Shown: positions 1,531 to 41,754 of the stretch, piece by piece
Numbering within the stretch: the first letter of the stretch is position 1
How the letters are laid out: each line of letters opens with the position of its first letter
From: a virus
DNA: 63,022 nucleotides
Strand: one strand, 5' to 3'
Virus record (IMG/VR): IMGVR_UViG_3300037504_000243
Location: 1-63,022 of that record
The notes under the pieces: generated by a model
The model's database searches: none
What the model saw: only the letters and a program-made list of their open reading frames with translations
Told to the model about the DNA's origin: nothing
Program-made: the position numbers and the translations under genes

Positions 1531-3132
1531 ATGGCCAAGAAAAAACAAACTGAACCAGACATAGTCACCACCCCAGATAACGAGTTTGACATCACGGTCC
1601 ACGACAGCGCCGACACCTCCTCCTTGTCCCGCCCTGACTTATACGAGATGGATGGAGTGTTGGCCCAGTTCTCTGTGTCATTGAACAGAGCTGTTAGTCA
1701 AAGTGGTGGTGACGGGGTTGACCGCCCTGTATTACAAGAGATTGCTACTTACGACACCTCGCAAGACTACTATGACAACAACATTCTCCTGCCCGACCCC
1801 GACCAGGTCTGCAGCAAAGCTGGGTATGTTACCTATGACTGGATGACGGTGCTGCGGTTCCTCCTGACCGACCCCCATGTTTGGGCTTGCTATCAATCCC
1901 GCAAAGCCGCGACGTTAGGGCGTGAGTGGGAGATAGTCGAAGGCAGGTACGGGACTAAGCCTGACCAGTTCAAACTGATCAAATCCTGGTTCGAGTCTCT
2001 CGATGTCCGACAGGTAATCTCTGACATATTAGACGCGCCGTTCTTTGGTCACTCCCCTCTCGAAGTCATCTGGGCAGTCGACGATCTGTACTGGTGGCCA
2101 GAGTCAATCGTAGGTCGTCCGCCTGAGTGGTTCGCCTATGACTATCAAGGCAACCTCCGATACCTCTCTCGCGCCGCACTGATTAACGGGGAACTACTGC
2201 CACCTAAGAAATTCCTACTAGCTCGTCACCACGCCAACTACTACAACCCTTTTGGCGAACGACTACTCTCCCGCTGCTTCTGGCCTATCACATTCAAACG
2301 AGCGAGCCTCAAGTTCTGGGCCATATTTATCGAGAAATACGGTATGCCCTGGGCGGTGGGGAAGGTCAGTCGGGGGACACCACAGAAGGAACGAGAGGCG
2401 TTACTGTCAGAGCTGGCCAAGATGGTCCAAGACGCGGTAGGTGTGATCAACGACGACGAGTCGGTAGAGTTCATGAACGACAAAATTGGTGGGCGAGGTG
2501 ACGTTACTCGTTCTTATGAGGGGTTGACTAAACAGGCTGACACTCAGATTTCTAAAGCCATACTCGGACAGTCCCTCACTACTGATAGTGGGCAAGACGG
2601 GTCCGGGTCGTACGCACTAGGGAAAGTTCATTCGGATGTTCGAGCCGACCTGGTCGAGAGTGACGCCCGGATAGTGGAGTATGTAATGAATACTCTACTG
2701 GCCTGGGTAACGTCTCTCAATTTCAACACCAATGCCCCGGAGTTCAGGTTCTATGAGGAGGAGGCGGTACAGCGGGACCTAGCTGAACGAGATGAGAAAC
2801 TGGTCAACACCGGTTTAAGGTTTACCAGGGAGTACTACGAGGACAAATACAACCTTGACCCTAGTTGGGTAGCCGGAGTGGTTGATCCAAAGAGCGGTGA
2901 AGGTGGCGGTCAGAGTGTCACGGTTCCGGGTGGACCTAGTACCGCGCCTTATAAACTATCACCGCCTATCGACTTGTTACCAGCACCAAACGAAAGCGGG
3001 GGTCGCGGGTCCGGTGCGGTGGCCAACCCTGAGACCAACGACGACGACAGCAACCCTGGTCAATTTGCTGAACAGGGTTTAAAAAAAAATCGTGGGTCTC
3101 GACTCAGGCGGCTCAAGTCAGTCAGATGGTAA
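1531..3132 (+). CDS. Portal protein (DUF935, Mu gp29-like)
   Basis: Forms the dodecameric ring at the head vertex through which DNA enters and leaves. The segment GKVHSDVRADLVESDAR (around residue 370) and the following helix are characteristic of Mu gp29/DUF935 portals. The preceding WPITFKRASLKFWAIFIEKYGMP-like region is also typical. At 533 residues the size is normal. Start ATG 1531 has GAGGG at 1521-1525. The C-terminus is Gly/Pro/Asn-rich and probably disordered. The end overlaps the next gene by seven bases, showing coupled translation with the MuF protein that binds the portal. Confidence 0.92.
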   Translation: MAKKKQTEPDIVTTPDNEFDITVHDSADTSSLSRPDLYEMDGVLAQFSVSLNRAVSQSGGDGVDRPVLQEIATYDTSQDYYDNNILLPDPDQVCSKAGYVTYDWMTVLRFLLTDPHVWACYQSRKAATLGREWEIVEGRYGTKPDQFKLIKSWFESLDVRQVISDILDAPFFGHSPLEVIWAVDDLYWWPESIVGRPPEWFAYDYQGNLRYLSRAALINGELLPPKKFLLARHHANYYNPFGERLLSRCFWPITFKRASLKFWAIFIEKYGMPWAVGKVSRGTPQKEREALLSELAKMVQDAVGVINDDESVEFMNDKIGGRGDVTRSYEGLTKQADTQISKAILGQSLTTDSGQDGSGSYALGKVHSDVRADLVESDARIVEYVMNTLLAWVTSLNFNTNAPEFRFYEEEAVQRDLAERDEKLVNTGLRFTREYYEDKYNLDPSWVAGVVDPKSGEGGGQSVTVPGGPSTAPYKLSPPIDLLPAPNESGGRGSGAVANPETNDDDSNPGQFAEQGLKKNRGSRLRRLKSVRW

Positions 3133-6100
3133 CTAGTATGGTCAATGCCTCACGTACTACCATGACCAATATGCTATTACCGATTACTATGTTGGCCGGT
3201 AGCGTTGACGGGTATGATGCGTTTGATGATGGTATCAATGAGCTTGACCTGTCTGGTAGTGTGATCGAGATGTCTAGGGTGTTAGTGTCCGGGTTGATCA
3301 ATACGGCCCTGGTTGGGTATGTCCAAATTGAACGAGAGAGGTTAGGTGAGGGGAAAGAGTTCGATGACTGGGCAGGGAGTGTTTGGTACTTGGAGTTTGC
3401 AGACGACGCCGATTCTGGTCCAGGTGATCCTTACGATTTTAGAGAGACGGTAGGAAAACTTAGAAAAAGGTGGAAAAAGATATTTGGCGAAGGGTCTGCC
3501 GTTATGTTCGATAAGGATTTTAAATTGACTGGTCACACAAAGGAGCTTAACCCAGATCAACCCGAGTGGGTAGCGGGACCAGTGAAATACCGAGACGACT
3601 CCGAGAACTACACTAAGGTTAAGGGTATAGTAAGTATGCTAGAAGATTTGGTTTCTAGTTACGAGGACCACGAGTTGTCTCGACCCGGTTTCCATAAACT
3701 TAGGCAGTCGTACACGTTACCCGCTAAATTGGTTTTAGAGGATGAGGGGAGGGTTGAGTATGAGGACGTCATGGCTCTATCGGACGACGACAAACCCGTA
3801 ATGCGGAAAGCTCACGGGTACTTCAACCCTCTGACCGGTAAGGTTCATATAGCTGCAGACCCAAACCAGTCACCGATTTTTGGACGTGGATACAAATCAA
3901 AATACAACCGGAACGCTAGAGGACCAGATGAAGTTTGGACGGTTGATGAATCAGTATATGGCACTCTCTCTCACGAACTTTCACACCACCTTTATCACGG
4001 GATGGGAAACGGTACTGCAAGTGTGTGGAGAAAGATAAATGAGAACTTGCCGAAGGATAAAAAAATAATCAGTGGGTACGGTGACCAGAGCGTGTACGAT
4101 GGTTTACGTAGTGAGACAGAACTCTGGGCTGAGTGCTTCGCGGCCTACCAGCACCCTGATTATAAGCCTGGTACCTTACCTCCTGCGATAGAAGAGTTTG
4201 CTGCAGAAGTGGCCCAACACGGGGGGATAATTTCAGATGAACAGATTGTACGTAGGGACCAACTTTCCTTTGCTTCGAAGTCAAGCCGTAAACATCTAGG
4301 GGGGTACATCAGTCTCCTGGACTATATTGATTCCGGGAAAACAGCCGACGACGTACCTGTACCAGATAAGGCCTACGAGCACTCTATAGCTATAGAGGAT
4401 GAAGCTGTAAGGTTAGGAAAAAAGACCCGGTTGATAGATGCAGAGGGTGAGGGTAGTAAATGGTACTATGTCCTACCTAACGACGAAATGGAAGCTATCA
4501 ACTCTACGTCACTTGAACCTTTATTAGGCGGTGACGAGGTCGACAACAGTGTTACAGGTCAGTTACGCAGGGAATACGGCAAAGCTTATATGATGGAGGT
4601 CGAGACTACTATACCTGAGATTAGCAAATTATGGGAGGAGTACCACCACGAGGAGGACGTGACAGCTATTAGCAATAAGGCTGGCTTTGACCCTTTGGAC
4701 TCTTTTGCGGAGTCGTTCAACGCTTTCACTCACCCTAATTACAAACCTGGTACTTTACCTGCCAGAATGGAAAACTTTATCGATGAAGTTTTATCATCAG
4801 ACGACCCTTACGATACCGAGCTTGTAGATAGGATTAGAGAACGGGGTGAAGGTAGGGCGGACAGGTTGAAATCTCTCCCTGAAAAATACGTCACAGTCGA
4901 AAGCGGTGATGATGAGGTTGTGGTCAGTGATAGTGGGGAGGAGGTTGTGGATGACCCGCCGGAAGTAGATAGTAAGAGTAGGGCAAGGAGGCGCGTGGAC
5001 GATGGAGAAGAGGAGGACGGTGGTACCGAGGATGAAGGTGGTACCGAGGATGGAGGCGATGGTGACGACGACACCGACGGCGGTGATGACTTCAAAGTCC
5101 AACTAGGATTCAATACCCCTTTCAAGGACGCGATGACTTGGGCCAAGGCCCGAACCACAACTATCAACCCGGGGTCTTGGAAGGAGCTTAGTGCCGACGC
5201 GTACAGTCGTGCATTCTCAGTTGCCCACGTTACTAGCCAACAAGTACTAGACGACGTTAGAGAATGGTCGGAGAAAGCTCATACCGAGGGGTTGACGTTC
5301 AAGAAATTCCAGAACGAACTGGTGCCCAAACTCAAAGAGCGAGGGTGGTGGGCCACCGCCGGTGAAAGTGCCGTAGTGGAGCTTGAGGACGGGACCCTTA
5401 GAAAACGACTCAACATGTCTAGACTCGGTATCATCTATGACACTAACATTGCCGTGGCTAACGCGGTAGGTAGGTGGCAGAACATCGAAGAGAACCAGGA
5501 CCTCTGGCCTTATGTGCAGTATGAAGGTATTGACGATGAGATGACTAGACCTACACACCGGGTTTTGTTCGGCCGGGTGTTTAGGGTTGGGTCAGAGATA
5601 TTGGATTCGATAGCGCCGCCGAATGGTTTCAGGTGTAGGTGTAGTCTGACGCAGGTTGACGACGACGAACTATTTGAGATACTTAGTGAGACAGGGTTTG
5701 AGTTGGACCAGTTACCTAGCGACGCGGCCCCGGATGAAGGGTGGAATCACAACCCTGGCAAGGCCGGGATGTTGGGCGGTTGGGAACCAGAAGAGGATGT
5801 ACCAGAGTTGCCAGGGAAGTTAAAGGATGATCTGAGTGACCTTATGGATAGTCTAGGTGATACCGATGATACTGATGTTGTTGCTAAGACAGGCGACACT
5901 GACACGGAACTATATTTAGGCGACCTGGTACCAGACCTTGATGTAGACGATCTGGACTTAGGTGACTTGGTATTCGACTCCGAGGACGGAGATGATACTG
6001 ACGCGGTCAACTTAGACGATACTGACACGGTTAGTTTAGGTGATACAGATAACGTTGATGTTGACACGGTGACAGGTAGTGAGAGTGACCAGAGCGGCCT

Positions 6101-6932
6101 CGGTGGCGATGATGACGTCATTGAAACTTCTCCCCTTGTTACACCTTTTATTCCTCACGACTGGGATGATGATTTCGTCACGTATGAAAAAACCCCGGAC
6201 CGCCCTGGTGTGACTGAGACCTATTACATTGAGACCGCCGATGGTAAATCTGGGTTATTCAAACCAAGAGGTAATAAAGGGGCCTTGCAAAAAGATGGGT
6301 TATTTGCGTCGGAACGCGAGGTCGCAACCAGCGCTATAAACGACTACCTAGGTTTTGATGTAGTACCACGTACTAGAATGGTTAAGCATCCTAAACACGG
6401 AGTAGGTTCATTTCAAGAGTGGGTCAAAGACGGTAGATTACAAGGTCAGGAGCCAACTGACAATATCAATCCTGAGGACTTTTATCAGGCGGCAATAATA
6501 GAGCAACTTATAGACAATCGGGATAGGCACAGCGGCAACTTTCTTATGACTGGTGCATACGATTCATCTAGTGGTAAGACGCGTCTACACTTGATAGATA
6601 ACGGAATGTCTTTTCTAGATCGTATGGGTTCAATACTTCCTCCACCTTACCTAGTTGAAGATGATTATAACATTGATGATGGTAAAGAGTTTGAGAAGGG
6701 TCTAGACGATGAGTACAAAAGGGATTTAATAGCCAAGGTCAAAGCTATTAAAATTGACGACTACTTGTCTGATTTAGTCGACGAGGAGGTCTATGGTCCG
6801 GACGCAGACAATGCTAAGACGAACGTGCGCGATCTGTTTGAAAAACGTAAGGAGGTACTCATCGAACGTATTGAAGCAGGAGCAGTTATTGAAGAGTCTA
6901 ACCCAGATAGGTGGTCGAGGTACACGAGATAG
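3126..6932 (+). CDS. Polyvalent MuF head protein: zincin-like protease + MuF domain + kinase-like domain
   Basis: A 1268-residue multidomain minor head protein. Residues ~200-360 carry HELSHH (His 283, Glu 284, His 287) and a downstream ELWAECF (Glu 336), the layout of a zinc metallopeptidase. Residues ~480-560 repeat the second half (SFAESFNAFTHPNYKPGTLP, Glu 529) without an HExxH, a decayed duplicate. After an acidic linker, ~690-845 is the Mu gpF/SPP1 gp7 MuF domain with RPTH (His 811) and PPNGFRCRC. An Asp-Thr-rich linker then leads to a protein-kinase-like fold: GLFKP (Lys 1046), DNRDRHSGN (Asp 1133, Asn 1138) and LIDNG (Asp 1158). MuF proteins with effector domains are known as polyvalent proteins, delivered with the DNA. 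Delivery here is inferred. Confidence 0.85.
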   Translation: MVTSMVNASRTTMTNMLLPITMLAGSVDGYDAFDDGINELDLSGSVIEMSRVLVSGLINTALVGYVQIERERLGEGKEFDDWAGSVWYLEFADDADSGPGDPYDFRETVGKLRKRWKKIFGEGSAVMFDKDFKLTGHTKELNPDQPEWVAGPVKYRDDSENYTKVKGIVSMLEDLVSSYEDHELSRPGFHKLRQSYTLPAKLVLEDEGRVEYEDVMALSDDDKPVMRKAHGYFNPLTGKVHIAADPNQSPIFGRGYKSKYNRNARGPDEVWTVDESVYGTLSHELSHHLYHGMGNGTASVWRKINENLPKDKKIISGYGDQSVYDGLRSETELWAECFAAYQHPDYKPGTLPPAIEEFAAEVAQHGGIISDEQIVRRDQLSFASKSSRKHLGGYISLLDYIDSGKTADDVPVPDKAYEHSIAIEDEAVRLGKKTRLIDAEGEGSKWYYVLPNDEMEAINSTSLEPLLGGDEVDNSVTGQLRREYGKAYMMEVETTIPEISKLWEEYHHEEDVTAISNKAGFDPLDSFAESFNAFTHPNYKPGTLPARMENFIDEVLSSDDPYDTELVDRIRERGEGRADRLKSLPEKYVTVESGDDEVVVSDSGEEVVDDPPEVDSKSRARRRVDDGEEEDGGTEDEGGTEDGGDGDDDTDGGDDFKVQLGFNTPFKDAMTWAKARTTTINPGSWKELSADAYSRAFSVAHVTSQQVLDDVREWSEKAHTEGLTFKKFQNELVPKLKERGWWATAGESAVVELEDGTLRKRLNMSRLGIIYDTNIAVANAVGRWQNIEENQDLWPYVQYEGIDDEMTRPTHRVLFGRVFRVGSEILDSIAPPNGFRCRCSLTQVDDDELFEILSETGFELDQLPSDAAPDEGWNHNPGKAGMLGGWEPEEDVPELPGKLKDDLSDLMDSLGDTDDTDVVAKTGDTDTELYLGDLVPDLDVDDLDLGDLVFDSEDGDDTDAVNLDDTDTVSLGDTDNVDVDTVTGSESDQSGLGGDDDVIETSPLVTPFIPHDWDDDFVTYEKTPDRPGVTETYYIETADGKSGLFKPRGNKGALQKDGLFASEREVATSAINDYLGFDVVPRTRMVKHPKHGVGSFQEWVKDGRLQGQEPTDNINPEDFYQAAIIEQLIDNRDRHSGNFLMTGAYDSSSGKTRLHLIDNGMSFLDRMGSILPPPYLVEDDYNIDDGKEFEKGLDDEYKRDLIAKVKAIKIDDYLSDLVDEEVYGPDADNAKTNVRDLFEKRKEVLIERIEAGAVIEESNPDRWSRYTR

Positions 6933-9519: not shown

Positions 9520-9987
9520 ATGGCGACTTATGGAGTGACTAAAACGGCTGACACTGCAGCAATTAGTCAGTTGGTAGCCTCTGAAAACTGTCAGATGAAA
9601 CAGGTTACCATGAAGGGAAGCTGCGGTGATCTGGACAGAGGGACGGTTCTCGAGTTAGCTAGCGAGAGCACCGGCCTTTGGCAGCAACTTACAGCCGGCA
9701 CGTCCGTTGAGACACTGGCTATCCTGGCTAAGGATGTAGACGACCAGACAGCAACCCAGCTAGCTTGGGTTTACATTACTGGTAAATACCGTGAGACAGA
9801 CTTGATCTGGCCTGCGAGTATCACCACGCTGCAGAAGTACGCGGCTATTTACAAAATGCAACGGGCCGGGATATTGATTGACGAGGCGGTATTGAGTGTC
9901 TCGACCACAACCACGACCACGACTAGTACTACGACCAGCACTACTAGTTCAACCACTACCACCACGTCCACGACTACGGCTCCGTAG
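9520..9987 (+). CDS. Head decoration protein (lambda gpD-like) with mucin-like C-terminal tail
   Basis: A 155-residue protein. Residues ~30-125 match the gpD-like decoration fold: GTVLELASEST, TLAILAKDVD, TQLAWVYITGKY, with the usual pattern of an AVLA-DVD strand and a V-Y-x-G-x-F/Y turn. It sits directly before the capsid gene. The last ~28 residues are almost entirely Thr and Ser and end in Ala-Pro. All four Thr codons and several Ser codons are used, so selection is on the protein, not a DNA repeat. The same ending occurs on three other virion proteins here. Decoration trimers would display the tails over the whole head. AAAGGAG precedes ATG 9520. Confidence 0.85.
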   Translation: MATYGVTKTADTAAISQLVASENCQMKQVTMKGSCGDLDRGTVLELASESTGLWQQLTAGTSVETLAILAKDVDDQTATQLAWVYITGKYRETDLIWPASITTLQKYAAIYKMQRAGILIDEAVLSVSTTTTTTTSTTTSTTSSTTTTTSTTTAP

Positions 9988-12045: not shown

Positions 12046-12624
12046 ATGCACTCAACCGAATTAATCAGGCGAGGTCGAGGTAAGGTTGCAATTGCTTTAC
12101 GGACAGGGGACGTGATAGGGACATACAAATACACCGGTATTTGTTCTGACTTCACGGTTGAACCGTCGATTGAAACGCAAGAGCATTTTGACCGCACTAA
12201 GCACAACACGCCTAGGACCAAGATTGTGGTTACGTCTAGCTCTCTCACTATATCGTTCAGTCATGATGAAGTATGGGTTGAAAACCTCGAAAGGTTTTTG
12301 ATGGGTAGTATGACAGGAGACGACGTCATCAATATTCTACAAGGTACAAGTAAGAGGTACGCCGTAGAGTTTAAAGAGACTCCAGAAGAGGGGACGACTG
12401 AGTATGATATTTGGTTGTTTCCCAAGGTCCAACTGTTACCCGGCGGTGCACACAGTTTGATCGCCGACGATTTCAGAACTATCCCTATGACCGGGGAGGT
12501 TGAAGAAGATGAAACCAATTACCCTGATTCGCCGTACGGTACCGTAACGAAAGTGCGGGGAGTGACGACCACGTCCAGTACAACCAGTACGACTACCACC
12601 ACGTCAACCACTACCGCACCGTAA
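12046..12624 (+). CDS. Probable major tail tube protein with mucin-like C-terminal tail
   Basis: A 192-residue protein, mostly beta: GRGKVAIALRTGDVIGTYKYTG, then FTVEPSIETQEHFDRT and LTISFSHDEVWVENLERFLMG, the pattern of siphovirus tail tube subunits. It follows the gp37-like gene, the normal place for the tube. The final ~19 residues are Thr/Ser-rich and end in Ala-Pro, as in the decoration protein. If it is the tube, the tails would line the outside of the whole tail. The tube assignment rests on fold pattern and order, not on a diagnostic motif. Confidence 0.65.
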   Translation: MHSTELIRRGRGKVAIALRTGDVIGTYKYTGICSDFTVEPSIETQEHFDRTKHNTPRTKIVVTSSSLTISFSHDEVWVENLERFLMGSMTGDDVINILQGTSKRYAVEFKETPEEGTTEYDIWLFPKVQLLPGGAHSLIADDFRTIPMTGEVEEDETNYPDSPYGTVTKVRGVTTTSSTTSTTTTTSTTTAP

Positions 12625-21546: not shown

Positions 21547-22041
21547 ATGTCAGTAGTACTAGGTGGGGTTACGTTAGCCGGGTTGGTGTGGTGGGACGAG
21601 TTTAAACCCCACGTTGATACCCGGATACAACCGTCGTTAGGTGGTGGAATCAATATATGGGAGCAAGTGTTACAAAGTAGGCCTATCGATCTGGTTGGCG
21701 GTGGCGATTATGGTTGGCAGAGTAAGTCGACGCTACAGAGTTTATACACTCTAGCTACATCACTTAACACAACGTATGAGTTGAACTATGAAGGGACTAA
21801 GTACCAGGTTAGGTTCAGGCACGAGGACGGAGCTATATCTGCTGAACCTGTAGTGCCGCGACCTAATACAGGGAACACTGACGATTATAGGAACGTTGTG
21901 GTTAGGTTGATGATTATTAGTACTACGGGGACAACCACCACAACCACGACCAGCACTAGTACCACGTCAACGACGACGTCCAGTACAACATCGACCAGCA
22001 CTAGTACCAGCACTAGTACTACAACAACGACCGCACCTTAA
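21547..22041 (+). CDS. Tail protein after tape measure, with mucin-like C-terminal tail
   Basis: A 164-residue protein. Residues 1-125 are a compact beta domain (VVLGGVTLAGLVWWDEF, GGGINIWEQV, QVRFRHEDGAISAEPVVP, NVVVRLMIIS) of the size and place of distal tail or tail-cap proteins, though I cannot name the family. The last ~40 residues are Thr/Ser only, with one Gly, and end in Thr-Ala-Pro. This is the longest of the four mucin-like tails. Codons are mixed. Confidence 0.75.
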   Translation: MSVVLGGVTLAGLVWWDEFKPHVDTRIQPSLGGGINIWEQVLQSRPIDLVGGGDYGWQSKSTLQSLYTLATSLNTTYELNYEGTKYQVRFRHEDGAISAEPVVPRPNTGNTDDYRNVVVRLMIISTTGTTTTTTTSTSTTSTTTSSTTSTSTSTSTSTTTTTAP

Positions 22042-23500: not shown

Positions 23501-24129
23501 TGACTCAGCCAAAGATATTGATAACTGGGTGCGGAGCTAGTGGTACTAAGTTCACCACTGAACTACTACGTCAAGCGGGAGTGATGGTGTCTCATGAACG
23601 TATAGGTCCCCGCGGTATGGTGTCCTGGTATGCCGCGCCTGGGTACAAGGTGTGCGGTCGTATTCCGTTTAACGGTCACGCACTGGGGGATTTCTACCCG
23701 GACCCGTACGTAATACTACATCAAACACGCCACCCTCTAGGAGTTATATCGAGTGCTAGTCAAGCCTGGAGCCCTAAAAGCTGGTTGTTTATTTCGCAAA
23801 ATATAGACGTATCCTGGACCCGTAATATGACTCACGCGGCTATGGTGTACTGGCTGAACTGGAACCAGTTGGCTGAAGGTATTTCCCAGCATACTTACCA
23901 GTTGGAGTCACTGTCACAACCAGATATTTGGGCTGAGTTCTGTAAGTGGATTAGACACCCGGAACTAGTTGACAAACGAGAGGAGTTGTTTGGGAGGGTG
24001 AACCGTAATACCAATAGCCGCAAAGACCACTATAAGAAATTGACCTGGCGGGACTTGAAGTTTACAGACCCAAGGTTGGCTGAGGCTGTACAAGCCCAGG
24101 CGGTGAAGTACGGGTATGAGATTGAATAA
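23500..24129 (+). CDS. Sulfotransferase-like P-loop enzyme
   Basis: About 209 residues. The N-terminal ITGCGASGTKFTTELLRQAG (residues 8-27) is a 5'-phosphosulfate loop of the G-x-x-x-SGT type. HQTRHPLGVISSASQAW matches the 3'-phosphate binding motif (R-x-P-x-x-x-x-S). This supports a PAPS-dependent sulfotransferase. ATG 23500 overlaps the previous stop; ATG 23485 is possible. An enzyme gene inside a run of tail genes is unusual. It may sulfate virion glycans or a tyrosine, or act on host surface sugars. Substrate unknown. Confidence 0.75.
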   Translation: MTQPKILITGCGASGTKFTTELLRQAGVMVSHERIGPRGMVSWYAAPGYKVCGRIPFNGHALGDFYPDPYVILHQTRHPLGVISSASQAWSPKSWLFISQNIDVSWTRNMTHAAMVYWLNWNQLAEGISQHTYQLESLSQPDIWAEFCKWIRHPELVDKREELFGRVNRNTNSRKDHYKKLTWRDLKFTDPRLAEAVQAQAVKYGYEIE

Positions 24130-30591: not shown

Positions 30592-31713
30592 GTGGGCAGC
30601 TTATCAGACTATTTAGAGAACGCAATACTAAAACACCTGGTCGACGAAGAGTCATACACTCCACCGACCATCTACGTTGGGTTGTCAACAGCTGACCCGA
30701 CCGACGACGCTAGCGGACTAAGTGAACCGAGCGGTGACGGGTATGCCCGTGTCGCCCATAGTAGTTGGACCACCGCCGCTAGCCGAGGTACCGCCAACAA
30801 CGGTCAAATCACCTTCCCTACAGCTACCGGATCGTGGGGGACTGTCACCCACGTTGCGTTGTTTGACGCTTCAAGCGGTGGTAACATGTTGGCCCACTCA
30901 GCCCTTGACGCTTCAAGGTCTATCGTATCAGGTAATACTTTTGCTATAGCCGACGGTGAGATAACGATAGACTTCAAAGTCTGGAAGTTGTACTACACCA
31001 GCGGCGGGACGTATGAGATACAAGATGATGACACTATAGAAGGCGACACTGGAGGCGCCACTGCCACTGTTCATGACGTTATACTACAGTCTGGTACCTG
31101 GGCTGGAGGTGACGCGGCCGGGTATATCTGGATTAAATCTGTAACTGGTACTTTCCAAAGTGAGACTATTTCGGTAGGTGCTAACAGTAACGTTGCAACA
31201 ATAGACGGTGATTTGGTCGGTGGTATCTCTGACTACCTAGCTCACAAAATGTTAGACCTGATATTCTCCGGGACGGGATACACCGCGCCGTCAATATACG
31301 TGGGGTTTTCCACAGCCAACCCAGAGGACGACGGTGGTGGTACTAGTGAGCCTGTCGGTAACAACTACAGCCGAACTCAGGTCAGCTCGTGGCGGTCGGT
31401 TGCTAACAGTGTAGTTGACAACGCGGCGGAAGTGACGTTACCGACCCCGTCTGGTTCTTGGGGGACGTTGACTCATGAGATACTGATGGACGCGGCGACA
31501 AGCGGTAACCTTCTATACTATGGCAAGCTACGATACACACAAAGCCCCAACAACGGGGACGGGTTAACAATCCCTGTTGGGGCTTTGAACATTGGAGTGG
31601 ACAGGACGTTACCGGTTACTACGACCACGACGACTAGCACTAGCACTACCACGACGTCAACCACTAGTACCACGTCAACGTCAACCACAACCACAACGAC
31701 GACAGCACCTTAA
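30592..31713 (+). CDS. Tail-tip protein with duplicated fibre domain and mucin-like tail
   Basis: A 373-residue protein from GTG 30592 with AAGGAG upstream. Two copies of a phage fibre-type domain lie at ~1-120 and ~210-335: SDYLENAILKHL ... YVGLSTADP ... GSWGTVTHVALFDA, and SDYLAHKMLDLI ... YVGFSTANP ... GSWGTLTHEILMDA. An unrelated beta insert separates them. The last ~31 residues are Thr/Ser ending in Thr-Ala-Pro. It is the last gene of the rightward operon and overlaps the convergent gene by four bases. Confidence 0.8.
   Translation: MGSLSDYLENAILKHLVDEESYTPPTIYVGLSTADPTDDASGLSEPSGDGYARVAHSSWTTAASRGTANNGQITFPTATGSWGTVTHVALFDASSGGNMLAHSALDASRSIVSGNTFAIADGEITIDFKVWKLYYTSGGTYEIQDDDTIEGDTGGATATVHDVILQSGTWAGGDAAGYIWIKSVTGTFQSETISVGANSNVATIDGDLVGGISDYLAHKMLDLIFSGTGYTAPSIYVGFSTANPEDDGGGTSEPVGNNYSRTQVSSWRSVANSVVDNAAEVTLPTPSGSWGTLTHEILMDAATSGNLLYYGKLRYTQSPNNGDGLTIPVGALNIGVDRTLPVTTTTTTSTSTTTTSTTSTTSTSTTTTTTTAP
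31541..31586. other. Inverted repeat inside the 3' end of the tail-tip gene
   Basis: AAAGCCCCAACA (31541-31552) is a perfect complement of TGTTGGGGCTTT (31575-31586) around a 22-base loop, within coding sequence. It lies ~125 bases before the convergent gene ends, where no other terminator is visible, so it may end transcription from both sides or protect the mRNA 3' end. Confidence 0.5.
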
Positions 31714-31913: not shown

Positions 31914-32182
31914 TATCTGTCCCCTTCGTCCTTATCGTAATAATCACCCATATCGTACGGTTTACTAAACTGAGACTGCATCGCCCGTAGAACAACTATT
32001 TGCTTCAAACCTTCTGAAATATTGTTGTTAGTTTTGTTTAACTTGTCTAGCAACTGGGAGACTCTGCCGAGGTACACGAAGCTAGCTAGTCCCAACAAGA
32101 ACAGTCCAAACAACGGACGGTCTGTAGCCGCGTAGTAAGACGACAACACTACGATAATCAGTTCATACAACAACTGTCCCAT
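31913..32182 (-). CDS. Small membrane protein of the sugar island
   Basis: An 89-residue protein. ATG 32182 overlaps the stop of the glycosyltransferase gene and has AAGGAGG within it. Two hydrophobic helices (LLYELIIVVLSSYYAA and LFGLFLLGLASFVYLG) are followed by an amphipathic and acidic tail. It may anchor the neighbouring glycosyltransferase, but this is inferred from coupling only. Confidence 0.65.
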   Translation of the reverse strand: MGQLLYELIIVVLSSYYAATDRPLFGLFLLGLASFVYLGRVSQLLDKLNKTNNNISEGLKQIVVLRAMQSQFSKPYDMGDYYDKDEGDR

Positions 32183-33195
32183 CACTCATCCTCCTTTAAC
32201 CATTTACTAACCCACTCCTGTATATCCACCACAGTCCTATCCTTCACCTTATCTCTCCAGGGTTGGCAATGTTCAACCACCTGTGTTATCATTTCCTTTT
32301 GCTTGTCCGGCCTCACTCCTCCACCTGTCTCAACGTACCTAATCAACATATCCTCACCACCCCAAACATATACTGCGGCAGCTCTATTCCAAGCCATACC
32401 CCAATGGGTGTAATGATAATCACGCTTGTCTCCTTGATGCCTCAAAAACCCATGTAACCAAAGCCAATGCTTATACCCCATTACTACCGGGGCAAAGTTC
32501 ATGAAGTGCTCACCGCCGGAGTATGAGTACCGTTGCGGCCACAGGTCCCCGGTCTGGTCGTTCTTCAAGTCGTTGACTATCTCCCTTGACAGCATCATCC
32601 CGCAAGAGCTAGCACACGGAACCTCGATAACACCAACCCGTTTCGACCAGTTGCGAGACAGGGTGTAACCTAGAAACCCTTTCTCGTCCATCTCGTCTAC
32701 CAGCTTATACCCTAACCCGTGACCTTCGAGTAGTTTATAACTGTTGGCGAAGTGTATTATCCCACCTAAAGTATGGTAGTTGTGACGGTAGAAGTCGAAC
32801 ATTCTGTACAACTGCCCGCGCTGGACTACACAATGCGCGTCACAGAACCAGAGGTAGTCGCTATCGGTTGCCTTGACCCCGACGTTCTTAGCCTGCCAAT
32901 GGCTCAACCTCTCGCTATACGTCAACACTTGTAACCAAGGTTCGTGTTTGGCGACGGCTGACAGGGCAATGTTACTCCGGCTCCTGTTCTCCTTGACATC
33001 TATCTGGTTGACAAACGCGTCGGACTCAGGAGCCGCGTTAATTTCTAGTTGCGATCGCCACTCAGGGCAGTCGTTGTCGATACAGATAATCTGGTACTCA
33101 ATCCCCCGGTCCCGTAGTTCCTCGTGGATTGACGCGACCGTGTATAGTATTTGCGGGTACTCTCCGGCAAATGGTATTATGATTGACAGGTCCAT
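32182..33195 (-). CDS. GT-A glycosyltransferase with DAHC metal motif (GT2/GT27-like)
   Basis: A 337-residue enzyme that moves a sugar from a nucleotide donor. MDLSIIIPFAGEYPQIL and IICIDNDC are the GT-A nucleotide-binding strands. YLWFCDAHCVV holds the metal motif Asp 119-Ala-His 121-Cys. Most GT2 enzymes have DxD, while D-S/A-H-C is the hallmark of polypeptide GalNAc-transferases that start mucin-type O-glycans. A later GGEHF and conserved Trp/His-rich end also fit an acceptor region. GAGGAG precedes ATG 33195. It heads the genes nearest the mucin-tailed structural genes. The protein acceptor is inferred. Confidence 0.82.
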   Translation of the reverse strand: MDLSIIIPFAGEYPQILYTVASIHEELRDRGIEYQIICIDNDCPEWRSQLEINAAPESDAFVNQIDVKENRSRSNIALSAVAKHEPWLQVLTYSERLSHWQAKNVGVKATDSDYLWFCDAHCVVQRGQLYRMFDFYRHNYHTLGGIIHFANSYKLLEGHGLGYKLVDEMDEKGFLGYTLSRNWSKRVGVIEVPCASSCGMMLSREIVNDLKNDQTGDLWPQRYSYSGGEHFMNFAPVVMGYKHWLWLHGFLRHQGDKRDYHYTHWGMAWNRAAAVYVWGGEDMLIRYVETGGGVRPDKQKEMITQVVEHCQPWRDKVKDRTVVDIQEWVSKWLKEDE

Positions 33196-33247: not shown

Positions 33248-34021
33248 CTAGCCCTCCTCCTTCTCGTACCACTCTGTAAAAAAGGCCTTCACCCCTTTCT
33301 TTCTGTACCCATTCTCCACCATCCACTCCCGACCAATATCCTTAACCGTCTTACCACCACCTCTCTCACACCATATACACCACCGGTTACTCTCCACCAT
33401 CTCGACCAGTTCCGACAGATCCCCTCGGTGAAACTGTTTCTCAGGGTTGGACTCCGGGTTGATATACTTTGCCGCCTTACTAACAAAGCTACTCCTCAAT
33501 ACTTGTGGGTGGCCGCAAAAACCGAACGTTAACCTTTGATAATCTGGTACTTCGAAACAACCAAGCTCGTCGTTGTACGGCATGAACCGGTTAAACGTTT
33601 TGATATCCTTTTCACCCGCTGGCTTGTCATTCAACCTTACCGACACCACATCCGGGTGGTCGTCCATAAACCTCATTATCTCTTTGAACCTAACCGACCT
33701 CAACAACTCCCAGTCATCCTCCAAATAAATCACATACGGGTACTGGTTCTCGTAGTCCCCTACCGAATACCAGACTGTTCTGAAAGCGTAACCGAACCCA
33801 GGCGACATCGGAAGGTAAACCCTTGTACCGCCAGTCCCCCAACTCTCAACCACACGTACAACCTCCTGTATATCGTCTGGTCCAACGGGGTCAACATTGG
33901 CAATGATAAACGGCGACAGGTATGGTAGGTCCGAGAATGTATGGAAAGTTTGGTATGTCCGGTTTAACAACTCCGCTCGCTTTGTAGCCGTAGTGATGAT
34001 TATAATACTGTCAGTTGACAT
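33248..34021 (-). CDS. Glycosyltransferase with LEDDW motif
   Basis: A 257-residue GT-A-like enzyme. SIIIITTATKRAELLNRTYQ is a typical opening, and YVIYLEDDWELL (Glu 101-Asp-Asp-Trp) is the metal and nucleotide motif. The end is rich in charged and aromatic residues. GAGGG precedes ATG 34021. It stands between another glycosyltransferase and a methyltransferase. Donor and acceptor unknown. Confidence 0.75.
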   Translation of the reverse strand: MSTDSIIIITTATKRAELLNRTYQTFHTFSDLPYLSPFIIANVDPVGPDDIQEVVRVVESWGTGGTRVYLPMSPGFGYAFRTVWYSVGDYENQYPYVIYLEDDWELLRSVRFKEIMRFMDDHPDVVSVRLNDKPAGEKDIKTFNRFMPYNDELGCFEVPDYQRLTFGFCGHPQVLRSSFVSKAAKYINPESNPEKQFHRGDLSELVEMVESNRWCIWCERGGGKTVKDIGREWMVENGYRKKGVKAFFTEWYEKEEG

Positions 34022-34031
34022 AACGACTCCC

Positions 34032-34622
34032 TCATACCTCCCTTACAAAATACAACAAGTTGTCGTAGTACGCTTTGATCCCCGGTTTATTTTTCCACGG
34101 TTTCCAATGCTCTTTGATCCTGTCACAAATACTGGGTCTGTATACGTAGCCAAATACCTTGAGCGATTCAACCCAGTATTCTGGTGGTTGGCAATTGACA
34201 TGGTGATGACCGTCTTGTCCAGGGGGGGCCGCACTACAGAGAATCTGGTCAGACAGGTCTGTAAGGTTTCTAACAAAGACAGACTTGCTCTCCGGCTCTA
34301 TGTGTTCTAACACCTCAAAACATGTGACAAGGTGATACCTCCCAGTCACCAAATTAAGCCTTTGAATGACACGGAAATCTAGATACCAAATACCATTAGT
34401 TTCTGCGTATTCCTTGGCGGCGGTGGACCCCTCGACACCAATGGCGTTTATACCCCGACACTGCCACTCTTTGACCAGATCACCAGTAGCACACCCCACA
34501 TCGACCACGTTAACAGGGTCTATCACTTCTTGTATTGCACCCACAACAATGGGAGCACGCCACCTCAACTTATGTCTCCTGGCAAAAAACCTTTTCCCGT
34601 ATATCTCTTCAAGTGGCTTCAC
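34032..34622 (-). CDS. SAM-dependent methyltransferase
   Basis: A 196-residue class I methyltransferase. VVDVGCATGDLVKEW (Asp 41 onwards) is motif I, IGVEGSTAA the adenosyl acidic loop, and LVTCFEVLEHIEP motif IV of the Methyltransf_11/23 type. It starts at GTG 34622 with GAGGAGGT upstream, five bases after the preceding gene. In sugar clusters such enzymes often cap glycans by O-methylation, which would suit this island. Confidence 0.82.
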   Translation of the reverse strand: MKPLEEIYGKRFFARRHKLRWRAPIVVGAIQEVIDPVNVVDVGCATGDLVKEWQCRGINAIGVEGSTAAKEYAETNGIWYLDFRVIQRLNLVTGRYHLVTCFEVLEHIEPESKSVFVRNLTDLSDQILCSAAPPGQDGHHHVNCQPPEYWVESLKVFGYVYRPSICDRIKEHWKPWKNKPGIKAYYDNLLYFVREV

Positions 34623-34626
34623 TCAC

Positions 34627-35766
34627 CTACCTCCTCTCGGTATAGTAGTGTGCATACTTTAATATGTTGTTCACCTCCACCATTAAGGCACCCCCTCTCG
34701 ACCCCCGTCTTAACCCAGGTACCAGCTTTAAAAACAACGGACCAGACCATCTACTGACCCCACGTTGCTGATCGGTCCATACTGCTGTCTCTTCTCTCCA
34801 CGTTATCTCTCTCTCGTAATAATCATCATCCAGATCCGACAACACCGATGCAACCTGTAACGCTACTGTATGAGGATCATCTGTCGACGCCGCAATCATA
34901 TTCACCCCACCCACTTCATACGTTACAGGTTCGTGGTACTGTGGGTAGCGTATCAGTGCGGGGCAACCGCAAGCATTGGCCTCTAGTAGCGACCGGTCAT
35001 TCTGGCCCGACCCCAAATGTAAAAACAACCTCGTCTTGTTGAACAACCTAGCCAGCTCGTTTCTAGGTAACTCACCTGTCAACTCCACATCCACCTTGCC
35101 CCGTTCAATTTTCTCCATAGCTTTAACCGTATTAATACCCCCACCCCGCAGTTTACCGGGCATTACCGCTCTAAGCTTTTTCTTAAACACCCGCTCGTAT
35201 TCTTCGACCACTTCCACTCCAAACCACTGACCCTTTTTGTCATGGATGTTACTAGCTCCTAGACACACGTCATACTCTTGAACGTAGTCATCAATCATGT
35301 AAAACACATTGTCTTTGATGGGTTTACGGTAAGGGACCACTACAGTATTGTTGCTAGTAGTATAACTCAACTTGATATCCTGCAAGTCATCCAGCACTAC
35401 ATCCCAAAAACCCCACCGCTCCCGGCCGGTATTAGCACCGTAAAAAATCATGGGTATACCCGACTGTTTACAGTGTTCATAAAAATCCGTAGGCTTATAC
35501 CCTCCCCGTACAAACACAACATCATTCGGCTCCAACCAAGGTATGAGTTGGGTGGAGTCCGGCAAACACAACCACTCGATATTCCACCCTATCGACGTCT
35601 TATAGTTAGGCATTGCAGTATTGACCACCAACACCTCAGTAACAACCCCGCTATGTGTCAACCATTCCATTAGATCGAACAACCCATCTTGTCTAAAGTG
35701 TTGGACGTCGGTGCGGTTGTGGGCATAGTGCAGGATTAGCTTACCTCGATTACCATCATCACTCAT
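34627..35766 (-). CDS. GT4-type glycosyltransferase (GT-B fold)
   Basis: A 379-residue protein. The C-terminal half carries the GT4 pattern VELTGELPRNELARLFNKTRLFLH followed by LLEANACGCPALIRYP (the E-x7-G-x-P-type donor motif). The N-terminus (KLILHYAHNRTDVQHF) is the acceptor Rossmann fold. ATG 35766 has a weak AGAAG site. Neighbours are a zinc-ribbon gene and the methyltransferase. Confidence 0.8.
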   Translation of the reverse strand: MSDDGNRGKLILHYAHNRTDVQHFRQDGLFDLMEWLTHSGVVTEVLVVNTAMPNYKTSIGWNIEWLCLPDSTQLIPWLEPNDVVFVRGGYKPTDFYEHCKQSGIPMIFYGANTGRERWGFWDVVLDDLQDIKLSYTTSNNTVVVPYRKPIKDNVFYMIDDYVQEYDVCLGASNIHDKKGQWFGVEVVEEYERVFKKKLRAVMPGKLRGGGINTVKAMEKIERGKVDVELTGELPRNELARLFNKTRLFLHLGSGQNDRSLLEANACGCPALIRYPQYHEPVTYEVGGVNMIAASTDDPHTVALQVASVLSDLDDDYYEREITWREETAVWTDQQRGVSRWSGPLFLKLVPGLRRGSRGGALMVEVNNILKYAHYYTERR

Positions 35767-36129: not shown

Positions 36130-36423
36130 TTACCTATCTCGACCACTCATCTTCTCAGGGCCCTTGACGATCTTGTATTTTTTATTCAACTCAAACAACA
36201 CGTGCTCTGTTACCTTTTTCAACTGCGCGTCGTAAAGACTATCCACCCAGTCTTTAAACGCCTCTGGTCCTAACCCCCAGATGCTCTCTTTAACTTCGAC
36301 TCCTTCGCGCTCTATCAACTCCACCTCGACACCCCTGTTTTCACACTGGTCCAGCAACGTCTTGACCCGGACCGCTTCACGTATTGGAATATTGGGTGTA
36401 CGTTTATCTCTGTCCTGACTCAT
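36130..36423 (-). CDS. Hypothetical protein after the mutase gene
   Basis: A 97-residue charged, helical protein. ATG 36423 with GGGAG upstream is preferred; the longer ORF would overlap the mutase gene by ~85 bases instead of 20. Segments: IREAVRVKTLLDQCENRGVE and FKDWVDSLYDAQLKKVTEHV. Not recognised. Confidence 0.6.
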   Translation of the reverse strand: MSQDRDKRTPNIPIREAVRVKTLLDQCENRGVEVELIEREGVEVKESIWGLGPEAFKDWVDSLYDAQLKKVTEHVLFELNKKYKIVKGPEKMSGRDR

Positions 36424-37570
36424 TGTTTCTCCCTTTCCTATTGTGTATAATACCCTTAGCCGCTTTTCTCCCGCGCCTAAAAGCCTCATCCATGTTTAAG
36501 TACTCGTACTGAGCTAGCCTCCCCACTAATGTATGACTAGTCCCTACCTCTTCCTTTCTGTAGTCCCTCGCTCTGATATATTCCGGGTGACCTTCTCGGT
36601 ACGGTATCGGGTAAAACCTACCTTCGTCACCATCTCTCACACTGGACCAGTCTCTAGGGTACTCCTCGACAACTACCGTGCCGTGACACCGTTGTCCTGT
36701 AACGTGTTTGATTTCCACCTGTCTAGTAAAATCGTAGTCGTTAGGGTAGTTAATCTGGACACACGGAAGGGCGGTATCTTGAATGTAGTCCATCGCCTTA
36801 AACATAAAGTCCACAGTGCGGTAATTGAGTTCACCATACTTGTACCCGTGGTACTCATCTAATGGTCCAGTGTAAACAACGTCACTGAATTGTCCCCAGT
36901 CCAGTTCCCTCGCATCGGTCTGTAACAACACACGTATATTGCCGTGGTCCAGTATCCGCTTGAACATAGCAGTGTAGCCGTCGTGCGGCATTTGCTGGTA
37001 CCTGTCAACAAAATACCGGGGGTCGTCAACTCCCCTAAGTGGAATCCGACTAACTAACAAATCTATATCAAGCCCACTAATCGCACCCCACTGTTTGAGA
37101 GTGTACCCCTGGTAGTACTCTTTACCAATTTTACGACCTAGATATTGAACGTGATCGTTTACAAGGATGTCATCATACCCAAACAACATCCCGTCTATTA
37201 TATGTTTTCTGTCCACAATATCGATGTCCTGTTGCCCCTTTATTGTAGGCCCATTTGATACGGACCAAGGGTTTAACGGCAGTGTCCGTAGTTGCCCAAA
37301 CACAAACGTTTTTACATGGTACGGCGGGTTGTATATCCATTCGGTGAACCGGCTCAACCACTTGACTAGCTCACTATCATTAGTATGGAAATAGTGAGGG
37401 CCATACCGATGAGTCAGTACCCCGCCGTGGTAATAATCATAACAGTTACCCGCAACCTGATTCCGCCTATCCACCACTAGTACTTTTAACCCACCGTCAG
37501 CTAACTCCCTAGCGGCAGCTGCCCCTGTCGGACCAGCACCTACCACCAACGCGTCACAGTCATTGAACAT
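36404..37570 (-). CDS. glf: UDP-galactopyranose mutase
   Basis: A 388-residue flavoenzyme that converts UDP-galactopyranose to UDP-galactofuranose, the donor for galactofuranosyl sugars. ALVVGAGPTGAAAARELAD is the FAD-binding loop. VAGNCYDYY and RYGPHYFHTNDSELVKWLS are diagnostic of the family, as are WIYNPPYHVKTFV and the EIKHVTGQ region. The length is normal. Its presence suggests that one of the neighbouring transferases uses UDP-Galf. Start ATG 37570. Confidence 0.92.
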   Translation of the reverse strand: MFNDCDALVVGAGPTGAAAARELADGGLKVLVVDRRNQVAGNCYDYYHGGVLTHRYGPHYFHTNDSELVKWLSRFTEWIYNPPYHVKTFVFGQLRTLPLNPWSVSNGPTIKGQQDIDIVDRKHIIDGMLFGYDDILVNDHVQYLGRKIGKEYYQGYTLKQWGAISGLDIDLLVSRIPLRGVDDPRYFVDRYQQMPHDGYTAMFKRILDHGNIRVLLQTDARELDWGQFSDVVYTGPLDEYHGYKYGELNYRTVDFMFKAMDYIQDTALPCVQINYPNDYDFTRQVEIKHVTGQRCHGTVVVEEYPRDWSSVRDGDEGRFYPIPYREGHPEYIRARDYRKEEVGTSHTLVGRLAQYEYLNMDEAFRRGRKAAKGIIHNRKGRNNESGQR

Positions 37571-38425: not shown

Positions 38426-38658
38426 ACCAACCCTTTCTCAATTGCTAACCACTCGGGTACCTCAATCATAACATCCTCATGTGGTTCAACAATATTGTAG
38501 TCCCCATACGTACAGTCCCCACACAGTAAATGTATTTGACTTTTCGGTAACCACACCGGGTTACCACTACCTTCGTCTATCAATACTGCTACTGCATCTA
38601 AGGTGTGAGTAATGAACACCAAGTCGAGCAGTATATAACCATCCTCAATGACTCCCAT
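38422..38658 (-). CDS. Small beta-rich hypothetical protein
   Basis: A 78-residue protein. AVAVLIDEGSGNPVWLPKSQI is a pattern often seen in small phage and plasmid proteins of unknown role. The start ATG 38658 with GGAGGT lies inside the end of the glycosyltransferase gene. Confidence 0.6.
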   Translation of the reverse strand: MGVIEDGYILLDLVFITHTLDAVAVLIDEGSGNPVWLPKSQIHLLCGDCTYGDYNIVEPHEDVMIEVPEWLAIEKGLV

Positions 38659-39589
38659 AACTACCTCCTTCTAAATCCCACCTGATCCGTTGCGCCAACG
38701 CCTTGGCCCTGGCTCTACTACTATGCCTATGAACCGCCAACCTTTGACCGCGCTTTGCAATACTAACCCGCCTCACGGTATTACTCAGACATCCGTCAAT
38801 CAACGACAATAGTTGGTCGATATTATCCCAGTAAACCAAATGGTCCTCGTCCACAAAACCATAACCTTGGGCGAAGTCTAACCCCTTATCATTGAAGGGT
38901 CGTTGCGCCAACACTACACACCCGGACGCCATAGCCTCTAAGTACTTAGGGCTTACGTTTCTGTATTCCGAATTGGCCACTACGAAAATCTTTGACCGCC
39001 TCAGTGTCTCGATATATTCCGGTCCTCTGACGACCCCCGTGACTAGCCTAACACCATCACCCACCCCTTTCTCTAACTCCTCCATTACCACCTTTCTGTA
39101 TTTGAATATACTTGCTTGGTTACTACCTAAACATGCAACGTCAATAACCCGTTCACCGTTTACCTCAACCATTTTAAACCGCTCCAGGTCCACGTCAAAC
39201 GGCATGAATGATACTGGTTCCTCGCGTCTCTTTGCAGCTTCCATACACTCATACCACCCCCTAGCAAATATGTGATCAAATCTCACCGTGTCTAGGTAGT
39301 TGTCGTGGTGTTGTTGTTGTCGTTTGTACGGGAAGTAGTCACCTAGTATATGATACCTGAGCTTGGCATGGACAACAGCATCCAATCCCAACCACCCACT
39401 CCACTTGTAATCATACCCTACAACCGCGTCACAAGAGATACCAGGGTGGCGGTGGTCCCAACTACTCCATCCTCTACCTAGGTAGGTGACATCAACATCC
39501 TCCACGTTTGCCAGCTCTTTCAATACACCCCATTGATAAGCTAGGTCCAACCGGTCCACGTTATTATCCCAAGCCACTACCACTTTCAT
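38645..39589 (-). CDS. GT4-type glycosyltransferase (GT-B fold)
   Basis: A 314-residue protein. It has SKIFVVANSEYRNVSPKYLEAMASGCVVLAQRP (parts only), the acidic-Gly donor region of GT4 enzymes, and a C-terminal helix. The N-terminal half begins KVVVAWDNNVDRLDL. It is slightly short, consistent with a reduced acceptor domain. Basic C-terminus. Confidence 0.78.
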   Translation of the reverse strand: MKVVVAWDNNVDRLDLAYQWGVLKELANVEDVDVTYLGRGWSSWDHRHPGISCDAVVGYDYKWSGWLGLDAVVHAKLRYHILGDYFPYKRQQQHHDNYLDTVRFDHIFARGWYECMEAAKRREEPVSFMPFDVDLERFKMVEVNGERVIDVACLGSNQASIFKYRKVVMEELEKGVGDGVRLVTGVVRGPEYIETLRRSKIFVVANSEYRNVSPKYLEAMASGCVVLAQRPFNDKGLDFAQGYGFVDEDHLVYWDNIDQLLSLIDGCLSNTVRRVSIAKRGQRLAVHRHSSRARAKALAQRIRWDLEGGSYGSH

Positions 39590-40380: not shown

Positions 40381-41754
40381 TTAAGGTTCAGTGGTGGACC
40401 TCACAGACTTAATAACGGACGTATCAAACCTCTCACCGCTCATATCCCTACCGTCAACCATCAACGGCTCATAATACTTTCTGTATATCCGGTCCCAGTT
40501 ATACATCTGTCTGCACCAAGTCTTAGCCACTACCGCCGACTCCTTAGTGGTTAGCTGTTGTATAATTCTAGCCGCCACCGCATCTAAGTACTCCGACTTA
40601 TCAGCGGGGATAAAATGCTGCCACACTGAGCCGAATTCAAAGTACAACGCGTTACCGCCACTGATCTCGATTTGTTGTTGCAACGACTTATTCAACACCA
40701 ACAAGTTCCCACCCAGCGCCGCCTCCGGGACTACCAACCCGAACGACTCGTGGTGAGTAGGGAAGATGAACAGGTTAGTCAATCCAAAAAACTCTCTCAC
40801 CGTGTAGTCAGGTATCCCGCTTTTAAACTGCTCCTCAAACCTAGTCCCTTCACCTACCCCCCTGGTAAACTCGAAGTCCTTACCCCGCTCTAGTCCAAAC
40901 AACTCTGCTAGGTGATAGTACTCATCCATCTCTCGCAAGTGGGTGGTCGCCGTTGCCCACTGGTTAGCCACGACCAGAAAAACATTGAGTCCCCGACGTT
41001 TCATACACCCAAATATCTCCATGACCTCCGGGACTCTTTTGAAAGTCAACCTGTCCTGGCCGGCCGGTAAACACTGGGTTATATCCGCTTGTAAAAAGTC
41101 CGGGTACCTCTGCAGGAAATCTCGCATTTCCAAACTGACCCCGCCACCCCACGACCTTGGGTCCTTTATGTGCGGGACTACCACCACTCGATACGGCATC
41201 GTCTGGTACTTCTCGACAACGTTCATGGCATCGCTTCTGTTGGGGTATACAAGGTAATGACGGTGGGTGAACCGGTCAAACTCCCACCAGTCTTTACGAG
41301 GGTCGCCGGGGATAGAGTGAATCCAATGATACCAAGCTTTAGGACCTGGATCGTTGCCGTCTGAACAAAACTGTTTGTCCAACCCCTCTAACATCTTGAA
41401 GTGCGGGAGGTTCCAACCAGTCAAGCACAGGTCGTGAGTGAAGACTATGTCAACCTCCTTTAGTTCCTCCTTCATTAGCTCAACAGTAGTACCCACCCAA
41501 TCCATATGTTCTTGAGTTAGACCACCTTCCCGTTCATAATCAATCAGGTTTGTTTTCGGTATCACGTCTCGCAACCGCCACCCGTAACTAGCCGCGTCTC
41601 TAGCTGGGTAATGCTTCATGTCTGCACCCTCTTGACAATACACAACCACCTCGTGACTATAAGTACTGAGCATCCTAGCCTGGTCAAACACAATACCAGT
41701 CAGTGAGTATTTACTATCGAAGTAGCTGAAGTTTGTCAGTATCGCAACCCTCAC
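40381..41754 (-). CDS. Glycosyltransferase (GT-B fold, GT4-like)
   Basis: A 457-residue enzyme. MRVAILTNFSYFDSKYSLTG begins the acceptor domain, and FGLTNLFIFPTHHESFGLVVPEAALGG (part) is the donor motif E-S-F-G-L-x-x-x-E-A. GTG 41754 with GGAGGTG. The largest of the phage transferases and the first gene of the sugar block. Confidence 0.8.
   Translation of the reverse strand: MRVAILTNFSYFDSKYSLTGIVFDQARMLSTYSHEVVVYCQEGADMKHYPARDAASYGWRLRDVIPKTNLIDYEREGGLTQEHMDWVGTTVELMKEELKEVDIVFTHDLCLTGWNLPHFKMLEGLDKQFCSDGNDPGPKAWYHWIHSIPGDPRKDWWEFDRFTHRHYLVYPNRSDAMNVVEKYQTMPYRVVVVPHIKDPRSWGGGVSLEMRDFLQRYPDFLQADITQCLPAGQDRLTFKRVPEVMEIFGCMKRRGLNVFLVVANQWATATTHLREMDEYYHLAELFGLERGKDFEFTRGVGEGTRFEEQFKSGIPDYTVREFFGLTNLFIFPTHHESFGLVVPEAALGGNLLVLNKSLQQQIEISGGNALYFEFGSVWQHFIPADKSEYLDAVAARIIQQLTTKESAVVAKTWCRQMYNWDRIYRKYYEPLMVDGRDMSGERFDTSVIKSVRSTTEP

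Follow-up and report, generated by a model that had tools for sequence, protein, structure and literature searches.

Four Virion Proteins of One Phage End in Thr/Ser Tails

Why should unrelated virion proteins of a single phage end in little else than threonine and serine? The question is raised by the DNA analyzed here, referred to as the window, i.e., the whole stretch of 63,022 bp of siphovirus DNA (IMG/VR record IMGVR_UViG_3300037504_000243, positions 1–63,022), whose PHROG matches give the gene order terminase–portal–MuF–protease–decoration–capsid–tube–tape-measure. As described in the initial annotation, four proteins carry near-pure Thr/Ser tails at the C-terminus of their translations, and all four tails close with TAP before the stop codon (Table 1). 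Tail lengths, given here including the closing AP, are 19–36 aa, and 40 aa is reached when STTG is counted for the longest tail. The variety of codons reported earlier was likewise found: with the four tails pooled, Thr is drawn from all four ACN codons (ACC 27, ACG 25, ACT 17, and ACA 11) and Ser from several (AGT 9, AGC 6, TCA 6, TCC 3, and TCG 2). Tails of this kind are restricted to these four genes within the window, the runners-up being ORFs that run antisense to the genes. Thr and Ser make up 15% of the structural proteome of the window, and the probability of a random 17-residue run is ~1e-14 per position.

The main domains of the tailed proteins are indeed unrelated, as their bodies match four separate PHROGs (Table 1). 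The designation "tip protein" for the product of 30592–31713 is, however, without support: phrog_240, which is matched by two stretches of this protein, is annotated as "head protein". An AlphaFold model of the decoration protein matched gpD of the lambda virion (8xqb_J0, E 9e-7) and SHP of phage 21 (1td0, E 3e-6) in Foldseek, and with a TMt of 0.82 against 1c5e it qualifies as a gpD fold. For the tail of this protein, no secondary structure was predicted in the model. Fusions to the COOH end of gpD serve for capsid display (e.g., PMC12656833), and in the tubes of siphoviruses, C-terminal domains project outwards (PMC8718954); given the predicted gpD fold, the tails would therefore face the outside of the particle. 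Unlike the display fusions to lambda gpD or tail tubes, the tag described here is natural and not engineered. Elsewhere among the structural genes, a HELSHH (HExxH-like), metalloprotease-like motif was seen by eye in the MuF-type minor head protein (3126–6932, + strand; 1268 aa).

Table 1. Tailed genes, their tails, and genes of the sugar island in the window.
Feature	Position (nt)	Strand	Description and evidence
Head decoration protein, tailed	9520..9987	+	lambda-gpD/SHP fold; phrog_49 E 1e-12; AlphaFold model match
Tail of decoration protein	9901..9984 (residues 128-155)	+	28 aa, STTTTTTTSTTTSTTSSTTTTTSTTTAP; translation
Major tail tube protein, tailed	12046..12624	+	phrog_807 (major tail protein with Ig-like domain) E 8e-18
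Tail of tail tube protein	12565..12621 (residues 174-192)	+	19 aa, TTTSSTTSTTTTTSTTTAP; translation
Tail-region protein behind tape measure, tailed	21547..22041	+	phrog_4408 (function unknown) E 4e-21
Tail of phrog_4408 protein	21931..22038 (residues 129-164)	+	36 aa, T/S with AP end (40 aa counting STTG); translation
Protein with two phrog_240-like domains, tailed	30592..31713	+	phrog_240 E 8e-43, two stretches
Tail of phrog_240-like protein	31618..31710 (residues 343-373)	+	31 aa, T/S with AP end; translation
GT2-family glycosyltransferase	32182..33195	-	PF00535 E 2e-11; relatives in three other tailed genomes
Island protein of unknown family	33248..34021	-	no Pfam match; relatives in islands of two tailed genomes
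SAM methyltransferase	34032..34622	-	PF13489 E 1e-7; relatives in two tailed genomes
Probable GT-B glycosyltransferase	34627..35766	-	PF13524 E 5e-4, below curated cut-off; relatives in three tailed genomes
UDP-galactopyranose mutase (UDP-galactofuranose supply)	36404..37570	-	PF03275 E 2e-49
GT-B glycosyltransferase	38645..39589	-	PF13524 E 6e-13
Proposed tag glycosyltransferase (activity inferred)	40381..41754	-	457 aa, GT-B fold, GT4-like; relatives in tailed genomes; model

The Tails Are Appended Units and All-or-None per Genome

To our search of the literature, poly-Thr phage tails yielded no paper. We scanned IMG/VR for five Thr codons followed by Ala, Pro, and a stop codon, and obtained 105 stretches. 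From these, the window loci, and one relative, 97 T/S-tailed ORFs in 69 loci were read; removal of redundancy left 61 tailed proteins, which form 31 sequence clusters. T/S tails in IMG/VR are found on about 30 unrelated families and are more extensive than had been described at first. PHROG functions of the tailed proteins comprise tail tube (eight), major head (five), decoration (four), and scaffolding (three), as well as other virion or tail functions; no non-virion function was identified among them, i.e., all are virion or head-assembly proteins. The three matches to phrog_673, "head scaffolding", are odd, as they fit an outward-facing coat poorly. Candidate acceptor tags form the very C-terminal end of decoration and tube proteins and also occur in relatives of major head proteins.

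Homologues were then gathered blind to tails, from 54 loci for the tube and 66 loci for the capsid protein. In orthologues of the decoration protein, the tail either follows after ...DRGIIIDEAILAV or the protein ends at that point (...DRGILVDKDFV). Untailed orthologues end at the domain end, and the tails are appended tags, not domains. A second tailed gene was present in 29 of the 32 loci with a tailed tube versus none of the 22 with an untailed tube (p = 3e-12); tails are all-or-none per genome. On the major capsid protein (MCP) tree, the tail state switched at least four times, two of these switches being forced by well-supported branches.

A Glycosyltransferase Family Tracks the Tails

A sugar island at 32–42 kb of the window encodes a GT2, GT-B enzymes, UDP-galactopyranose mutase, and a methyltransferase (Table 1). 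Outside this island, a small protein encoded in the tail gene block (23485–24129, + strand) has the look of a P-loop sulfotransferase (ILITGCGASGTKF). This resemblance was seen by eye only, the protein being without a PHROG or Pfam match; it could sulfate the glycan.

The initial annotation had named the absence of any co-occurrence with phage sugar enzymes as an outcome that would refute a glycan on the tails. Instead, a specific glycosyltransferase (GT) family was found to track them. PF00534 (Pfam GT1) was present in 11 of 21 tailed but in none of 27 untailed relative contigs (p = 1.6e-5); among contigs of at least 40 kb, the GT was present in 7/8 tailed versus 0/9 untailed ones (p = 4e-4). 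One orthologous family, with 33–44% identity to the product of 40381–41754 (E 1e-80 to 1e-104), was recovered from ten further tailed genomes, G045 and nine of the 21-contig panel. A strong match in G012 was rejected as a family member, as it is a different GT. Using a profile of our own (50 members), we detected the family in 10/18 tailed versus 0/19 untailed contigs of the same virus class, one of the genes being cut by the contig end. Most tailed contigs without the GT are short fragments, in which its absence is hard to score; in the tailed contig G007 (46.8 kb), the GT was not detected either.

The association was also tested in reverse by a scan seeded with the GT alone, which returned 69 contigs. 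By hand count, 51 of these, about three quarters, have verified tails (33 with a tailed ORF in the fetched DNA, 6 on contigs already known to be tailed, and 12 verified later), and five more showed only runs of six Thr codons (Thr6). When whole contigs were searched for such runs, they were found in 18/29 GT contigs, chosen mostly since the fetched locus was without a tail, versus 0/21 untailed controls (p = 2e-6). Furthermore, the gene directly upstream of the GT was tailed in 9/56 loci, against an expected gene fraction of 3.7% (p = 2e-4). Shared ancestry may account for some of the association, even though the GT-bearing tailed genomes belong to different capsid families; the independent phylogenetic pairs, only one or two, are too few for a test. 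Phages with unrelated GTs were not included in the control sets, and a scan for UDP-galactopyranose mutase as a specificity control retrieved no relatives, leaving no control for "any phage sugar enzyme". Pfam GT2 was rejected as the weaker tracker, being present in 6/8 tailed tube-class contigs >40 kb and 0/5 untailed ones, but in 0/38 contigs of a second panel that combined short tailed and mixed untailed contigs.

Glycosylation of the tails could also begin with another enzyme, i.e., the first sugar would be attached by host enzymes or a different phage GT, and the ~440-aa family to which 40381–41754 belongs would only extend the glycan. Several further GTs do lie in the same islands, and two tailed contigs of 79–80 kb (G039 and G044) carry other GTs while lacking the 440-aa family. 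However, when the island genes were compared, the 440-aa GT alone had relatives in all ten tailed genomes, the others in two or three. We regard a different initiating enzyme as rather unlikely, although it should be kept in mind.

A more distant alternative is that the tails remain unmodified and serve as disordered entropic brushes or as weakly H-bonding Thr/Ser adhesion strips, with the GT acting elsewhere (host envelope or DNA) and both being merely common in such phages. Homopolymer-like brushes could function without modification, and it is well established that some phage GTs act on DNA or on the O-antigen of the host (PMC12619734). There is, moreover, a second class of Thr-rich C-termini with TTTTTTT(V/A)AP repeats (L008, L010, L020, L025, L043, L053, L096, and L105); in the tested contigs of this class (59–113 kb), the 440-aa GT was absent, and most also lacked any GT2. 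An association found from either side, with the GT enriched directly behind tailed genes, argues against unmodified tails, and neither the near-pure T/S alphabet nor the ending common to unrelated proteins would be explained by them. We therefore consider this alternative improbable.

As to the distribution of the GT family, tblastn of one member (L228:2343-3659) against 50,697 INPHARED phage records, including mycobacteriophages, gave no match, and no relatives of the tube were found in cultured phages, in which a low-complexity filter hides T/S tails from such searches. In GTDB genomes, close GT relatives were limited to three MAG contigs, two of them tailed, and the family therefore looks viral. 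Two MAG contigs (L312 and L313; a Deltaproteobacteria bin and a Desulfobacteraceae bin) hold the GT together with tailed genes; they are perhaps prophages or binned phage contigs, and give a hint at sulfate-reducer hosts. Two other contigs, L288 (113 kb, G105) and L290 (277 kb, G107), combine the GT with 155–162 overlapping Thr6 matches, which apparently sit in giant Thr-rich proteins. In L237, L240, L232, L235, and L241, the GT lies near relatives of other window-island genes (GT2, GT-B, and methyltransferase). Such neighborhoods in several tailed genomes are suggestive of a portable sugar island.

Retaining GT4 enzymes are marked by an E-x7-E motif, and the corresponding residues E336 and E344 are invariant in 50 sequences of the family. 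The AlphaFold model of the window GT (pLDDT 89) gave 279 matches in the PDB at E ≤ 0.001, with MshA, GlgM, and BshA first, by which it meets the GT-B double Rossmann fold. TarM and SdgB were matched as well; SdgB, with a Z of 14.9, is level with many non-protein GTs. By phmmer against the PDB, no sequence homology to SdgB or GtfA was detected, and the GT profile matched BshA-type chains and glycogen synthases weakly and SdgB not at all. The modeled fold provides a structural precedent for protein glycosylation but does not prove this function, as many non-protein GT4 enzymes share it.

The Ending Is Genome-Specific and Not Copied at the DNA Level

The closing Ala-Pro holds for the four tails of the window and for some other genomes, but not as the general rule that the initial annotation might suggest, since other tails end in A, S, T, V, or PP. 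Sorted by genome, TAP in the window is replaced elsewhere by TTA, TAT, TTS, pure T, TTV, or PPP/APP, and these endings at homology-found loci rule out AP as a universal end. Because the AP-based IMG/VR scan cannot tell how frequent AP is, the concordance of endings was analyzed in the window and in loci retrieved through homology to the tube, MCP, or GT. The last two residues were identical in 66% of pairs of unrelated proteins from the same genome versus 15% when permuted (85 pairs, 38 genomes), and a concordance of 66% was reached in none of 5000 shuffles.

An ending conserved within a genome is also what a recognition signal with another purpose would show, whether it guards against ClpXP-type degradation, serves assembly, or is read by a protease, the T/S run then being a mere spacer. 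We know of no protective or cleavage logic common to endings as diverse as A, S, T, V, AP, and PP; in addition, a spacer has no need of Thr or Ser, and the link to the GT would remain unexplained, which makes such a signal very unlikely.

At the codon level, the identity at matched residues of same-genome tails was 0.302 versus 0.297 in codon shuffles (79 pairs, p = 0.38), and no excess of DNA sharing was detected across these 79 pairs from all genomes. Adjacent identical Thr codons are avoided in the tails of all genomes (21.6% observed versus 30.0% expected), and such low-repeat coding fits the expected need to keep a long Thr run without a slippage-prone repeat. No codon-level copying was found despite the common ending, and it is therefore the protein sequence that is shared, not the DNA; the earlier proposal of a protein-level origin rather than slippage is thus borne out. 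Within the window, the tails are not entirely independent of each other as DNA: 19 nt are common to the tails of 21547 and 30592 (p = 0.0025 versus codon shuffles) and 16 nt to those of 9520 and 21547 (p = 0.035), each being one of six pairs. An ACN microsatellite undergoing slippage or gene conversion, to which these two pairs above chance might point, is ruled out as the main cause by the codon tests and is hardly credible as the origin of the tails.

A Proposed Glycan Coat over Head and Tail

We consider it likely that the tails serve as C-terminal acceptor tags for O-glycans, which a dedicated phage GT attaches, although glycosylation itself is inferred. In the host cytoplasm, during assembly, the GT encoded at 40381–41754 would add the initial sugar at numerous Thr/Ser hydroxyls along the disordered tails. 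It would recognize the T/S run and probably also the genome-specific end (Ala-Pro in the window); its action on the tags and the role of the ending are both inferences. Other enzymes of the island (the GT2, two further GT-B enzymes, UDP-galactopyranose mutase, and the methyltransferase) may extend and cap the glycan, in the window possibly with galactofuranose, the identity of the sugars again being inferred. With tags on both the decoration protein and the tail tube, the finished particle would have a sugar coat over head and tail. Such a coat might be of benefit by shielding against proteases or binding agents, by reducing adsorption to wrong (decoy) surfaces, or by attachment to lectin-like surfaces; nothing in the present data separates these options.

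As far as the work of Freeman et al. (2023, Cell Host Microbe) is relayed in PMC12619734 and PMC11256854, mycobacteriophages (Che8 and others) have their capsid and tail tube subunits glycosylated at the C-terminus, with phage-encoded GTs and with shielding as the proposed benefit. Our system resembles theirs in the C-terminal location of the candidate acceptor sites on head and tube proteins, in the idea of a shield, and in phage-encoded GTs, a hallmark that the window meets with several GTs, one of which tracks the tags; the glycan is, however, inferred here. It differs by a long acceptor tag on many unrelated proteins, a genome-specific end, and, as judged from the lack of a tblastn match, another enzyme family. 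In Che8, neither the capsid nor the tube sequence has a T/S tail, and both end in ...GS; judged by sequence, these Gly-Ser ends would fit a common C-terminal signal.

The staphylococcal GT4-type enzymes SdgA and SdgB place GlcNAc along low-complexity Ser/Thr runs of several proteins per cell, SdgB modifying almost every Ser in Ser-Asp repeats (PMC3794999). The proposed tag GT is similar in its GT4-like fold as modeled, SdgB being among the structural matches. Streptococcal GtfA/GtfB are also GT4-type and add GlcNAc to serine-rich repeat adhesins. Unlike either pair, the tag GT is phage-borne, shows no sequence similarity to SdgB or GtfA in our searches, and would act on short C-terminal tags instead of long surface repeats. 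The pilin sequons of Neisseria and Pseudomonas resemble the tags in having Ser/Thr near an Ala-Pro context that is C-terminal or of low complexity. Their O-oligosaccharyltransferases are, however, membrane-bound and act in the periplasm, whereas phage particles assemble in the cytoplasm.

Implications for Uncultured Phages

Glycans at the C-termini of mycobacteriophage capsid and tube proteins are known; what differs here is the acceptor tag, the genome-specific ending, and, as far as tblastn shows, the enzyme family. Documented cases of virion glycosylation come from a few actinobacterial phages. A broader and more tentative reading, which we put forward as a possibility only, is a portable glycan-tag code. 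Virion proteins would be addressed to a co-inherited GT by their T/S tail and its genome-specific terminal residue or dipeptide, proteins gaining the tag would join the coat, and endings and enzyme would co-evolve; the code would be widespread in uncultured phages, with the enzyme absent from cultured collections. Our data point to a general and genetically simple form of virion glycosylation in uncultured environmental phages, in which the acceptor tag can be read from the sequence and there is a candidate for the initiating enzyme. Should this hold, sugar-coated phage particles could be predicted by a sequence rule, proteins of choice might be furnished with defined glycans, and the Thr-rich tails on many unannotated phage structural proteins would have an explanation.
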